A stretch of 64,000 bases of DNA from Chrysogorgia sp. JL179-B06. Taxonomy: Eukaryota; Cnidaria; Anthozoa; Scleralcyonacea; Chrysogorgiidae. The notes under the pieces were generated by a model, which saw nothing but the letters and a program-made list of their open reading frames with translations, made no database searches and was not told the origin of the DNA. A program made the position numbers and the translations under genes. The DNA is taken from NCBI GenBank assembly GCA_035772405.1, contig JAYKKM010000304.1, positions 166,501 through 230,500 of the forward strand, written 5' to 3'. Shown one piece after another: positions 15,569-42,500 of this stretch. Position 1 is the first letter of the stretch; each line of letters starts with the position of its first letter.

Positions 15569-18500
15569 GTAAGAAATGCTTTATTTTTCAGAATCATGTA
15601 TTCATCGCACACGGTTAGGAGGTCAAAACGTTTCAATTCTATTTTCTCCATTAGTTTCTATGCTTGATTGAAAATATTTTATTTCCTCTTTGTAGTTGAA
15701 TTTCACAAAGGCTACAAATGATTGGAATGGCTTGATTGTAAAATTGAAAATAAAATTTAAAATTTATTGTGCAAAAGGAAAATTAACTCAAGTGAATACC
15801 AACGACATTAAGTGCGTCGTGATCAAATTTAAGGGAAAGATCATTTGTAAGTACAAATAAAAAAATCATAGAAAACTATACTGGGAATTCGAGGGATTGT
15901 AAAAGAGGATATATGATATAATATCAGCAGTGATATATATTTTTAAAAACATAATTATTAACTATCGAATTCGTGTATGGGTCTAAGGTTCGAAGGGAGG
16001 CCCTATGTCGTCAGAGAGTGAAACGTAAAGTGGGATGCTCTAAGTAGCCTGCTTCACACCTTATATATAAGCAAACTTCTCAAGACCAAAACGTAAAAAC
16101 TGTGAAGCAAGCAAGAAGCAAGCGACCACGCACCACGGTACACACAGCAATATGCCTTAGCGTTTGCTCTACTACTGTGAACCATGCAGGCTTAAACATT
16201 TGAGCTACACATGCAAATACTCAGATAGCAGATTGTGAAGATTACGATAAGCATTGTTTCCTTGTGTGACATACTGTACTAATGCTTAGGACTTCCATAG
16301 GCGTAGGAACCGGGGGCTGGGGGGATTCAACCCCCTCCCCCATTTTAAATGGGGGCTGAGCCCCCCCAAAAAAATAATTCAGGACGACCGTTGCTAAATT
16401 TAATTTTTTTCCCAATTGTATTAGTACGTCTATAGAAACTAGGGCCTTCATCTACACTATATTTTACAAACGGGTGTAGCCTGAAGAGTAAGCGAATCAC
16501 TAAACCCTTGCCACACGAGTGTTAGATTGGTTCCCAGACCCTTCTGTCATTACTATGCGCAAAAAATTGCGTCACCTGGTTAGAGGCAGCCGACAAATTT
16601 AGATTTATTTGAACTATGCTCGCCAAATAATTAGATAAAAAAGTTTGTTCGAAGAGCTGCAAATTTTCTTTCCAAACTTCTAGATTTCGAAATTTACCGG
16701 GGGAGGAACCCAGGACACCTTAAAATGCAGTCACTAATAACCTGCTTGTCGACCTCAGCTCTCCCAACTTTAAATCCGTTCCTATTCATCTGAGTGCTTA
16801 GGACTTGGGGTGTCCATATGTCTGCATTTCTCAGTCGTAACGATGTTTGAACCTTCGCTGGCTATACTTATTGAAACATTCGCTTTGGAATCTAAGCGCG
16901 CGTATAAATCAATAAAACAGAGCATTTCAGTGGCAAACAGTAACGGCGTAAGCATGATAACTTAGTTGAAGTTGGACGATATGTACATGGACGAACGTCA
17001 AGCTCAGATCCTCAGAAAAATGTTTCTGAGTCCCGGACTAGGAACCAAACCAATTCTGATTGCCGGCGAGACGTTCTAACCAGTGATAATTTATTGCTAT
17101 TCTTTTCATTGCTCTGTTTTCTCTCTTTTCATAGTTACAACAGCAACCACACCACCAAAGTTAGGTACGTATTTTTAATTTACTCCTGAATCCTCCTCTA
17201 TTACATATTGACCTCGGATACGTAATGATATATAATTGAATATAATTGAATTGAAAATAATCTTTATTGAGGAAGCCATCGTCCACGGTAGGTGGTTTAA
17301 CGATAGGTCCTACAATTAAAAGATAATAACAAATGGTACATATCAGTAAAATATGTACATATCAGTGAAAAAGGTAAAATATCAGTTTAAAAAACATCTT
17401 TCCTGAGTCCTTGTTTAAAAACAGTCACTGTTGTTCATTTACGCAGGGCAAGTTCCAAAGAGTTCCAGGTATCGGATGAAAAATTAAGTGTGTTCCAATG
17501 ACCTCATCTTCTTCTTGTTGAATATTTACGAATATCATTTCTGTTTCGTGTATTATAGCTATGAAAGTTCCAATTCAAATTACAGCTAAAACTATTTAAA
17601 AAAGATTATTTATTGATTTATAGGTAAAAACAGCGCGATGTTCACGTCGTTGTAATGGTCTTCAGGATAGTTTTTTAAAGCGTCTGATGCAGAAATATGA
17701 TGTAATTAAGTCGTTTATCGCTAAACTTTCAATTGCTCTGTTTTTTAAATTCTTATAGTTACAACAGCAACCAGAACACCAAAGAATGGTGAGCATTTTT
17801 AATCTTGTTCTGAATCCTATTGAATATTGACGTAGCTACACTGTAAATTCAAAAGAGTCATTTTGACTCCTTTGAAGGAGTCATTTTTTTGACCCCAGGA
17901 CGACACCTCGAAGGAGTCATTTTGACTCCTTTTTAGCCTACTCCTTTAAAGAGTCATTTCTACCCTTTACAAGAGTCATTTTGACACCTTCGAAGGAGTC
18001 ATTTTGACACCTTCGAAGGAGTCATTTTGACACCTTTGAAGGAGTCATTTTGACACCTTCGAAGGAGTCATTTTGACACCTTCGAAGGAGTCATTTTGAC
18101 ACCTTCGAAGGAGTCCTTTTGACACCTTCGAAGGAGTCATTTTGACACCTTCGAAGGAGTCATTTTGACACCTTTGAAGGAGTCATTTCTACTCTTATGT
18201 AGGGTCAGACGACACCTTTAAAGGAGTCATTGTAACTCTTCTTTTGGGTCATTTTTACTCTTATGTAGGGTCAGACGACACCTTTGAAGTAGTCATTTTG
18301 ACCCTTCTTTTGGGTCACTTCTACTCTTATGTAGGGTCAGACGACACCTTCGAAGGAGTCATTTTGACCCTTCTTTTTGGTCATTTCTACACTTATGTAG
18401 GGTCAGACGACACCTTTTAAGGTGTCAATTTTACCCTTTTTGGGTCATTTCTACTCCTTTGAAGAGTCATTGGTACCCTTTATGAAGTTCATTCTACTCT

Positions 18501-39500: not shown

Positions 39501-42500
39501 AAGATGAATTTCGAAGTGCATGTTGTCAAATTAAATGGTAAGAAAGCCTATTCAGTTCGCCGTTAATTTATATCCAGTTACTTACATATATTTTTACAGT
39601 CGTAGATTAGCGCAGTTTTCTATCGTTTAAATGATCCCAGTGTGTTGAGATAGGCCGAAGTGGAGTCTTTCAAAGAGATTTGATTAACGATTAACGTTCG
39701 GAAAACAGCGAAGATAGCCGGACCGGGGCCGATTTGGTCGCGATATTTGAACCTTATGTGTTGTGATTTCGTTCGGAAGGCGTTCCGACCTCGTTCGGAA
39801 CGAGAATGGAACCCGTTCGACACGCGTTTTTCGTTAGGTTAATTCTGAGCAGTACTGTAAGTCTTTTATTATTAAACTTTCGACTGCTGTGTTCTTTTCA
39901 TATTCTTATAGTTACAACAGCAACCATACCACCAAATAATGGTAAGTGTTTTTAATGTGATTCTGAATCCTACTATTTCATATTGACCTATAGCTGTATG
40001 CATTATATAATTTGTGGAAATATTACGTAAGTCGTTTATTGCTAAACTTTCGTCTGCTCTGTCCTTTTCTTATTCTTATATAGTTACAACAGCAACCCCA
40101 CCACCAAAGAATGGTAAGTATAATTAATCCAAATCCTTCTCTATAATCGTAAAATAAAGATCAGAGCGAAGATCAAGATTCGTAAATGTAATAGAAGACA
40201 AGTCAAAAGAAGTAAAACAGATTTATAGTGCAGCTGTTAAGGGTAAACAATTAGATGAATTGTGCGTTTTGTGATAAAAGCATTAAACGTCTCAGATTTG
40301 TAGACCTGTAGGACCTCAGTAATTCTGGCTATAGAGCCATCGCTGAAAACTCCTGTGACAGGAATAAACCGGTTTTGATTAAAAAAATGGTGAGTCGGCA
40401 TTTCTTACCCTTACATTTTCAGTGAATAATGTAGGTATTTGGCGCTATTAGTGTTTTATAGAATGTATAGAGATGCAAAGTGTTCAGGAAAATATGTTAC
40501 CCCAGAGCAACTAATGTCATGCAACTTGTAACATGAATAAACATGTTTGGATGAAAAATGCTGACTCAACATTTTTATGATCGCTCTTTCCTATCGTTCT
40601 TACAATTGACTATCAAGAAATCTCATGTGAACATCTTTGTTTATCCGATGAGTTGTAGTGTTCAAAGAATGGAGTGCCACTTTAAATTATTTTCATATTA
40701 TTATAGTTACAACAGCAAACACACCACCAAATAATGGTACGTTTTTTTCTATTTTTCTATTTCTATTCTCTTCTATATCGACTTAGCTGTGCTCAATGTA
40801 ATAATTTGTAGAAATATGACATAAGTAGTTTATTATTAAACTTTCGACTGCTCTGTTTTTATATTTATTATAGTGACAGCAACAACCACAGCACCAAAGA
40901 ATGGTAGATATTTTTAATTTACTCCTGAATGCTCGTCTAACAAATTAACTTAACTGTACGGGATAATATAATTTGTAAAAATATTACGTAAGTCTTTTAT
41001 TACTAAACTTTCGACTGCTCCGTTCTTTTCATATTCTTATAGTTACAACAGCATCCACACCACCAAAGAAAGGTAAGTTTTTTTTTAGTTCTGAATCCTT
41101 CTCTTCTTTATTGACCTAGCTGTGCTCAATGTTATAATTTGTAAAAATATTATGTATGTCTTTTATTATTAAACTTTCGAGTGCTCTGTTTTTTATATTT
41201 ATATAATTACAGCAACAACCACAGCACCAAAGAAAGGTAAGTATTTTTAATGTACTCCTGAATTCTCCTCTAACAACTTGACTGAGTTGTAAGCAATGAT
41301 ATAATTTGTAAAAATATTACGTAAGTATTTTATTACTAAACTTTCGACTGCTGTGTTCTTTTCATATTATTATAGTTACAACAGCAACCATACCACCAAA
41401 TAATGGTAAGTGTTTTTAATGTGATTCTGAATCCTACTATTTCATATTGACCTATAGCTGTATGCATTATATAATTTGTGGAAATATTACGTAAGTCGTT
41501 TATTGCTAAACTTTCGTCTGCTCTGTCCTTTTCTTATTATTATATAGTTACAACAGCAACCCCACCACCAAAGAATGGTAAGTATAATTAATCCAAATCC
41601 TTCTCTATAATCGTAAAATAAAGATAAGAGCCAAGATCAAGATTCGTAAATGTAATAGGAGACAAGTGAAAAGAAGAAAAAACAGGTTTATAGTGCAGCT
41701 GTTAGGGTAAACAATTAATTGAATTGTGCGTTTTGTGATAAAAGCATTACACGTCTCAGATTTGTAGACCTGTAGGACCTCAGTAATTCTGGCTATAGAG
41801 CCATCGCTGAAAACTCCTGTGACAGGAATAAAGCGGTTTTGATTAAAAAAATGCTGAGTCGGCATTTTTTACCCTTACATTTTCAGTGAATAATTACGGT
41901 ATTAGGCGCTATTAGTGTTTTATAGAATGTATCGAGATGCAAAGTGTTCAGGAAAACATGTTACCCCAGAGCAACTAATGTCATGCAACTTGTAACAGGA
42001 ATAAACATGTTTGGATGAAAAATGCTGACTCAACATTTTATGATCGCTCTTTCGTATCGTTCTTACAATTGACTATCGAGAAATCTCATGTGAACATCTT
42101 TGTTTATCCGATGGGTTGTAGTGTTCAAACAATGGAGTGCCACTATAAATACTGTCTAACCAAATTTATTTAGGTCTGAATATTAATATTATCTTACCTA
42201 GCTGTTCTCCATAAACACACATGGCTGTACACTGCAGGTTGGTTTTGAACAGTTGCACAACCCCTTCAGGCTTTTTTGCAGGATCAGTGGATAAGATCAT
42301 AGTAATTTTGCTAAGCTTGCAACAAGGTTGTCCACAGACGGTTCTATAAATCATCTCTCTAGCTCCCAACCCCACTCAGCTGGACTTGGCAGTGTCAAGT
42401 GGAGTTGGCGCCATACATGGACACCTTCAATCGTGGACAAAATTGTTGAGAAAACAACAATAATTACTAATTCATCTATAATTGTCATTTCATCACCCTC

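Follow-up and report, generated by a model that had tools for sequence, protein, structure and literature searches.

Tandemly repeated phase 1-1 microexons and a predicted Thr/Pro-rich stalk in an octocoral adhesion GPCR gene

The repeats of classical mucins lie inside one large exon, and extracellular domains are known to shuffle as class 1-1 modules. Tandemly repeated exons encoding 81-base repeats have been reported from Schistosoma mansoni (Davis et al. 1988, cited by title in PMC10526429), and the micro-exon genes (MEGs) of schistosomes are described in part of the same source as encoding secreted proteins from short exons, mostly multiples of three, set among long introns. Among adhesion G protein-coupled receptors (GPCRs), the N-terminal region of ADGRG2/GPR64 is intensively spliced, with cassette exons 5-13 (PMC8834492, in part), and mouse adhesion GPCRs commonly vary in their N-terminal regions (PMC6667449, in part). 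Here we describe a stretch of 64,000 nucleotides (nt) from the octocoral Chrysogorgia sp. JL179-B06 (C304:166501-230500, hereafter the window), in which 44 microexons would assemble a Thr/Pro-rich stalk in an adhesion GPCR.

Like the Schistosoma exons, as far as the title cited in PMC10526429 describes them, these are short tandem exons encoding a repeat protein; in contrast to the 81-base flatworm exons, those of the coral are mostly 24-36 nt long, occur in up to 196 copies, are of phase 1-1, and are found in a seven-transmembrane (7TM) gene and with other extracellular domains. Short exons that are mostly multiples of three are shared with the MEGs as presented in the accessible part of that source, whereas the window exons are copies of one another carried on a satellite-like unit and lie inside a gene encoding a 7TM receptor rather than a secreted protein. 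ADGRG2/GPR64 is a frequent vertebrate name among the matches of the window gene, and its splicing varies the extracellular region while leaving the 7TM untouched, but it has far fewer exons and these are not described in the available part of PMC8834492 as tandem copies of one exon.

The initial annotation of the window held that no adhesion GPCR stalk built in this way had been described. None was found in the literature searched, and the claim is qualified by the ADGRG2/GPR64 cassette exons 5-13 (PMC8834492, in part). Neither the available part of a 2026 review (PMC13197933) nor the text of a transcript survey of human adhesion GPCRs (PMC11039983) uses the word 'microexon'. In the literature matches listed, no title or abstract describes repeated microexons for an adhesion GPCR or for a coral, most subscription journals lying outside that search, and a literature search on the YB-1 motif gave no matching paper. 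Tandemly repeated exons and spliced N-terminal cassettes are known; the scale of the array, its portability and its junction motifs are new within the partly accessible literature searched.

Layout of the microexon array

A scan allowing at most 8 mismatches over 29 nt found 44 blocks on the forward strand between positions 17135 and 41577, and none on the reverse strand of the window. The blocks are very short and all divisible by three (38 of 30 nt, five of 24 nt and one of 33 nt); each is preceded by AG and followed by a GT (42) or GC (2) donor, and all 44 are of phase 1-1, as the initial annotation had described; none contains a stop. Its further statements that any subset of the exons keeps the frame, that the full stalk has about 431 residues (1293 nt, 431 codons), and that the flanking exons fit also held, since phase 1 is shared by the end of exon 15696-15846 and the entry of exon 45438-45664, and the model that joins them is open. 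In the 24-nt class AA stands at the position of the usual acceptor AG, and an ACAG six bases inside keeps the frame. The reading of all units as variants of VTTATTPPK(N/K) does not hold strictly for every one: the first peptide ends in KL, one ends in KT, another class reads differently, and the 24-nt class has two residues fewer.

The exons are tandem copies of one another, and the 431 residues that they encode (Thr plus Ser 36%, Pro 19%) form the Ser/Thr/Pro-rich tandem repeats of a predicted mucin-like stalk. As in mucin tandem-repeat domains, the repeats are Thr/Pro-rich and length follows repeat number; unlike in mucins, each repeat is a separate exon. The stalk contains 27 N-X-S/T motifs, of which 26 span exon junctions (44 junctions in total), the Asn being encoded by the final complete codon of one exon, while the split codon and the Thr or Ser come with the next; the last junction-spanning motif extends into the HRM-like exon that follows the array. 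With the ending AAT-G, which 27 of the 44 exons have, almost every unit that could follow completes such a site.

The repeat unit of about 166-175 bp pairs a complete phase 1-1 exon with its intron, and recurs as monomers of about 166 bp, dimers of 333 bp and higher-order blocks of 2.7 kb. Introns between microexons range from 133 to 4,776 nt, and 29 of the 45 array introns, flanking ones included, are of 125-150 nt. A profile of the full unit gave 47 matches in the window (the 44 units, two halves of another, and one negligible match). Profiles built from the flanks alone recovered all 44 units with the downstream flank and 40 of 44 with the upstream flank, together with the two halves of a dead unit at 23399-24314 and one weak reverse match; no decayed exon came to light among the window units. 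One copy has thus lost its exon by replacement.

Several array introns contain other repeats. A large imperfect inverted repeat with arms 75-91% complementary occupies 41725-44986 in the last array intron; parts of one arm turn up again behind several pairs of microexons, so that the element was apparently copied along with the units. Separate 23- and 66-bp tandem repeats with GAGTCATTTTGAC motifs lie at 17938-18456, and 295 bases at 32069-32363 are nearly all G, a possible weak spot of sequencing or assembly.

Frame, constraint and splice sites

To the window units we added those of other array loci in the 781-Mb assembly of the same genome. A caller that does not force the frame gave 283 units with both flanks, after exclusion of 14 partial matches (three of these lie at C304:386-390 kb, and both halves of the window dead unit also count among them). 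An acceptor AG is present in 281; of that number 280 have a length divisible by three, and a single unit contains a stop. Counting acceptor, donor, length divisible by three and absence of a stop together, 279 of the 283 are intact. The 281 units reduce to 183 distinct ones: all but one (182) have a length that is a multiple of three, and one carries a stop. With the same donor caller, 982 AG sites in window positions 42001-62000 gave 355 (36%) multiples of three and 379 (39%) with a stop, and we rejected on this control the proposal that the blocks are chance AG/GT pairs. The microexons of the window are very likely coding exons, as judged from their sequence.

Parsimony changes per site among 28 non-redundant window units were 1.17 in the exon and 2.49 in the intron, with every 30-site intron stretch at 1.80 or above; without units 1-3 (25 units) the values were 0.97 and 1.76, and 1.30 for the lowest 30-site intron stretch. 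Four-fold sites had 0.50 changes per site in both sets. Between six loci, compared over the first 24 exon bases with at most 10 distinct units each and the 24-nt classes excluded, divergence was 0.079 at four-fold sites, 0.223 at the other exon (replacement) sites and 0.248 in introns, so that silent change runs about threefold below introns; because the sites are few and the copies related, all of these figures show the direction of constraint rather than its exact strength. There are 24 distinct gap intervals in the introns, 19 of which are not multiples of three, and a single one, of three bases, in the exon. Purifying selection on individual residues of the peptide was rejected, since replacement divergence is near the intron rate and it is the silent sites that are constrained, the opposite of the expected pattern. 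What is kept is therefore the exon sequence at the RNA level, the frame and a Thr/Pro-like composition, and not a fixed peptide.

The mean donor score was 4.39 of 5 for the microexons and 4.00 for nine ordinary introns of the window gene. Eleven of the 44 microexon donors score 3 or less, eight of them reading GTAGAT, and they are interleaved with strong ones. Such an arrangement, together with the preservation of frame in every subset and the intensive splicing of the ADGRG2 N-terminal cassette (PMC8834492, in part), could be read as a code for stalk length, in which exons with strong and weak donors alternate and their inclusion is regulated by tissue or condition. We hold this only as a tentative possibility: two of the nine ordinary introns of the window gene also score 3, and weak donors therefore need not mean skipping.

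The host receptor and related arrays

The joined gene model is open through the HRM-like exon, the GPS and the 7TM to a stop at 62098; no start codon or signal peptide was found for it. Without the stalk, the joined protein matches 7tm_2 (PF00002, E 1.8e-45), a class B-type 7TM, and GPS (PF01825, E 2.2e-9), and the GPS sequence fits an H-X-T site for autoproteolysis. The exon that the initial annotation labelled HRM is in place and in phase 1, but we call it HRM-like: taken alone it scores 19.9 bits against the Pfam cut-off of 26.2, and HRM does not appear for the joined protein at E 0.01. No separate GAIN model is among the Pfam matches of the joined protein; by eye, the GAIN-region exons are colinear with those of octocoral relatives. 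The six top database matches all come from octocorals (Dendronephthya, Paramuricea, Xenia) and share 45-52% identity with it, named octocoral matches in another relatives search range from 28 to 67%, and many vertebrate matches are named ADGRG2 or G4. By its nearest relatives in sequence, the host gene is an octocoral adhesion GPCR.

At the position of the stalk, some relatives have FN3-like sequence (by eye), a Xenia and one Dendronephthya protein have Ser/Thr-rich sequence (also by eye), and others carry arrays of Pfam matches that correspond to SRCR domains. The N-terminal domain gave no credible fold or family match; its exon at 15333-15568 is supported as a real part of the gene by 15 matches in the same genome, itself included, 9 of the other 14 being nearly full length at 83-91% identity. 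A further exon at 47337-47468 (132 nt, open and in phase, between the HRM-like and GAIN exons) was rejected from the main transcript as absent from the relatives by eye, and was omitted from the queries for relatives, for the stalk with the HRM-like region, and for Pfam.

Own-genome searches returned 9 DNA matches (itself included) and 10 protein matches for the HRM-like exon, 14 matches for the GPS exon, eight of them at 82-100%, and at least 90 for a microexon dimer, the window's own included. The HRM-like and dimer matches led us to reject the proposal that arrays are confined to the window gene; the array loci found (Table 1), like the match counts of the genome searches, are lower bounds. 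The largest array, on C348, has 196 units in 34 kb when further DNA is included, and encodes 2,124 residues with no stop. Its units are 33 nt long in 183 cases, 24 nt in eight and 30 nt in two, with one each of 34, 26 and 21 nt; its introns are of 120-159 nt with one exception, its joined peptides contain 62 N-X-S/T motifs like those described above, and it stands immediately before an HRM-like and a GPS exon. Far upstream of this array, at C348:1.75-1.90 Mb, the N-terminal exon has five additional matches (62-86%), perhaps from further sister genes.

A sister gene about 190 kb from the window gene (C304:370955-408248; N-terminal exon 91% and HRM-like exon 96% identical) has 30 units with intact acceptors, two with lost acceptors, and a stop in the matching GPS exon nearby. 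This receptor looks like a decaying copy, such losses being expected once constraint ends. Between close sister genes unit counts thus vary from 44 in the window to 30 on C304 and 196 on C348. The loci C385:495-507 kb and C473:725-737 kb, the one near-identical pair seen, resemble retained haplotypes, those beginning at C385:495 kb and C473:725 kb being 99.49% identical over 12 kb with four two-flank units each; the matching GPS exon has a stop in the C473 copy and none in the C385 copy.

Arrays also occur on C62 and C80, where no HRM-like or GPS exon matches are listed. EGF-like exons lie upstream of the C80 array, and 1.9 kb downstream is an F5/8 type C exon (E 5.6e-6; 26.9 bits, cut-off 28.2) that enters in phase 1 with the split codon G-TT found in most microexons; one EGF exon, by eye of the calcium type, is itself phase 1-1. 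The C62:760-763 kb array has an F5/8-type exon 82% identical to that of C80 at 1.6 kb downstream. The array at C62:2.54 Mb is preceded upstream by an EGF-like exon (6.8e-8) and by a weak match to PAN (0.026, under the cut-off). The DNA fetched downstream of this array yielded no F5/8-type exon; a retroelement lies there, with frames that resemble an LTR (long terminal repeat) retrotransposon by eye (L055 2365-6390). From order, strand and phase, the EGF-like and F5/8-type exons probably share one transcript with the arrays. The array is specific neither to the window receptor nor, apparently, to receptors. As in class 1-1 shuffling, it stands between class-1 exons (EGF-like, F5/8-type, HRM-like) and preserves phase; the difference is that a ten-residue linker multiplies in place rather than a folded domain.

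At 6635-9181 of the window lies a LINE-type frame, open over 848 codons, that matches reverse transcriptase (6.5e-40) and endonuclease. Another open frame of 262 codons at 11749-12537 resembles by eye the end of a different retroelement, and has no Pfam match at E 0.001.

Table 1. Exons and repeat features of the window, and array loci in the same genome (positions are those of the window unless a contig is named)
Feature	Position	Strand	Basis or content
N-terminal domain exon, phase 1 to 0, no known fold	15333..15568	+	own-genome matches
N-terminal domain exon, phase 0 to 1	15696..15846	+	joined model
Microexon 1	17135..17164	+	
Microexon 2	17759..17788	+	
Microexon 3 (33 nt)	22565..22597	+	
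Microexon 4	22968..22997	+	
Microexon 5	23133..23162	+	
Microexon 6	23296..23325	+	
Dead unit, both intron flanks kept, exon replaced by insert of about 0.8 kb	23399..24314	+	unit and flank profiles
Microexon 7 (24 nt)	24377..24400	+	
Microexon 8	24540..24569	+	
Microexon 9	25408..25437	+	
Microexon 10 (GC donor)	27137..27166	+	
Microexon 11	27309..27338	+	
Microexon 12	29072..29101	+	
Microexon 13	29244..29273	+	
Microexon 14	32939..32968	+	
Microexon 15 (24 nt)	33112..33135	+	
Microexon 16 (weak donor GTTATG)	33275..33304	+	
Microexon 17	33441..33470	+	
Microexon 18	33606..33635	+	
Two 2.7-kb higher-order copies (34208-36906 and 36907-39606)	34208..39606	+	99.89% identical
Microexon 19	34513..34542	+	
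Microexon 20 (GC donor)	34685..34714	+	
Microexon 21	35307..35336	+	
Microexon 22	35472..35501	+	
Microexon 23	35641..35670	+	
Microexon 24 (24 nt)	35811..35834	+	
Microexon 25	35974..36003	+	
Microexon 26	36140..36169	+	
Microexon 27	36305..36334	+	
Microexon 28	37213..37242	+	
Microexon 29	37385..37414	+	
Microexon 30	38007..38036	+	
Microexon 31	38172..38201	+	
Microexon 32	38341..38370	+	
Microexon 33 (24 nt)	38511..38534	+	
Microexon 34	38674..38703	+	
Microexon 35	38840..38869	+	
Microexon 36	39005..39034	+	
Microexon 37	39912..39941	+	
Microexon 38	40084..40113	+	
Microexon 39	40707..40736	+	
Microexon 40	40874..40903	+	
Microexon 41	41043..41072	+	
Microexon 42 (24 nt)	41213..41236	+	
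Microexon 43	41376..41405	+	
Microexon 44	41548..41577	+	
HRM-like exon, enters phase 1	45438..45664	+	joined model, own-genome matches
GAIN-region exon	48245..48391	+	joined model; colinear by eye with relatives
GAIN-region exon	50539..50633	+	joined model; colinear by eye with relatives
GAIN-region exon with GPS	51102..51711	+	joined model, own-genome matches
7TM exon	59109..59230	+	joined model, Pfam
7TM exon	60049..60317	+	joined model, Pfam
7TM exon	60941..61007	+	joined model, Pfam
7TM exon, cytoplasmic tail, stop	61570..62098	+	joined model, Pfam
Array locus	window		44 units
Array locus	C304:385-398 kb		30 units and 2 without AG
Array loci (two)	C62		9 and 23 units
Array locus	C80		13 units
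Array locus	C385:495-501 kb		4 units
Array locus	C385:2.037 Mb		4 units, one decayed
Array locus	C473		4 units
Array locus	C244		2 units
Array locus	C348		148 units in two-flank count; 196 with further DNA

Stalk assembly, copy number and alternatives

The claim of a modular Thr/Pro-rich stalk of frame-neutral microexons in an adhesion GPCR draws support from the frame over the 183 distinct units, and also from the silent-site constraint, the matching phase across hosts and the differing counts in sister genes. We consider it probable that these are real coding microexons, multiplied in the manner of a satellite and spliced into the stalk; the Ser/Thr-rich sequence that two octocoral relatives carry in this position, by eye, also favours it. 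A number of points weigh against this interpretation. Replacement sites diverge nearly as fast as introns, and faster in several locus pairs; the units were initially picked by exon similarity, which the flank-only profiles remedy only partly; and the unit callers preferred lengths near 30 (30 or 33 equally in the 196-unit count for C348). Two of the 196 C348 units are broken, one having a 34-nt exon and one lacking the usual donor, where the best alternative gives 26 nt, and these would need to be skipped if the mRNA is not to be spoilt. None of the 7,971 database candidates scored against the stalk with the HRM-like region reached E 1e-5, and the two near-identical 2.7-kb copies could be an assembly duplication.

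Some of these points would suit an intronic satellite that captured a single exon, in which case most copies would never reach the mRNA and only a few exons would be used. The 166/333-bp periods, the 2.7-kb higher-order copies, the recent near-identical copies, the replacement rate and the two broken C348 units are all consistent with it, but the constraint on silent sites is not, nor is the divisibility by three of all but one of the 183 distinct units; moreover, none of the 44 exons in the window is decayed, their donors match those of ordinary introns, and decay is seen where it would be expected, in the C304:385-398 kb copy with its two lost acceptors and GPS-exon stop. We regard such a satellite as unlikely. 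It is also very unlikely that the true allele has fewer units and that the count was inflated by assembly error or collapsed alleles. The 99.89% identity of the paired 2.7-kb blocks points in that direction, but a third copy reaches only about 96% identity, there are clear differences among the other units, the similar C304 sister array has different counts, and this pair would remove at most about 9 of the 44 units.

If the microexons are coding, the stalk may be assembled as follows. The unit of about 166-175 bp would multiply by tandem and higher-order duplication, like a satellite, between class-1 exons, and each transcribed unit would be spliced as a small exon with ordinary splice sites. 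Recognition is probably through the A/C-rich exon itself, because the silent positions are the constrained ones. The joined exons would give an unfolded, extended Thr/Pro-rich stalk bearing O-glycans and, at most junctions, an N-glycan, which would separate the N-terminal domain from the GAIN/GPS region and the 7TM. Mucins extend about 0.25 nm per residue, and at that value 431 residues would make a stalk of about 100 nm, with copy number setting its reach and the arrival of force. Length would change mainly through gain or loss of genomic copies, with skipping possible at every unit; copy number is probably the main dial, since the C304 sister, for all the 96% identity of its HRM-like exon, has 30 intact-acceptor units and not 44.

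More broadly, we lean, with limited confidence, towards viewing the array as an exon satellite, that is, a portable tandem repeat whose unit is a phase 1-1 microexon with its intron, present in at least two kinds of gene (receptor and F5/8-type) of one octocoral genome, building stalks that may be a few units or about 2,100 residues long, and creating N-glycosylation sites at most junctions of the window gene. Such a satellite would expand by unequal exchange at no cost to the frame, and each splicing or copying event would alter both the length of the stalk and the number of its sugars.

If this is correct, satellite-style expansion acts on complete exons, and the size of a receptor may be tuned by genomic copy number with the frame kept safe. 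The array lengths of the sister genes (44, about 30 in a perhaps decaying copy, and 196) would offer a natural series for relating stalk length to the way in which adhesion GPCRs sense force. A single gene with 196 tandem microexons would also put the ordered pairing of near-identical sites by the spliceosome to a severe test.

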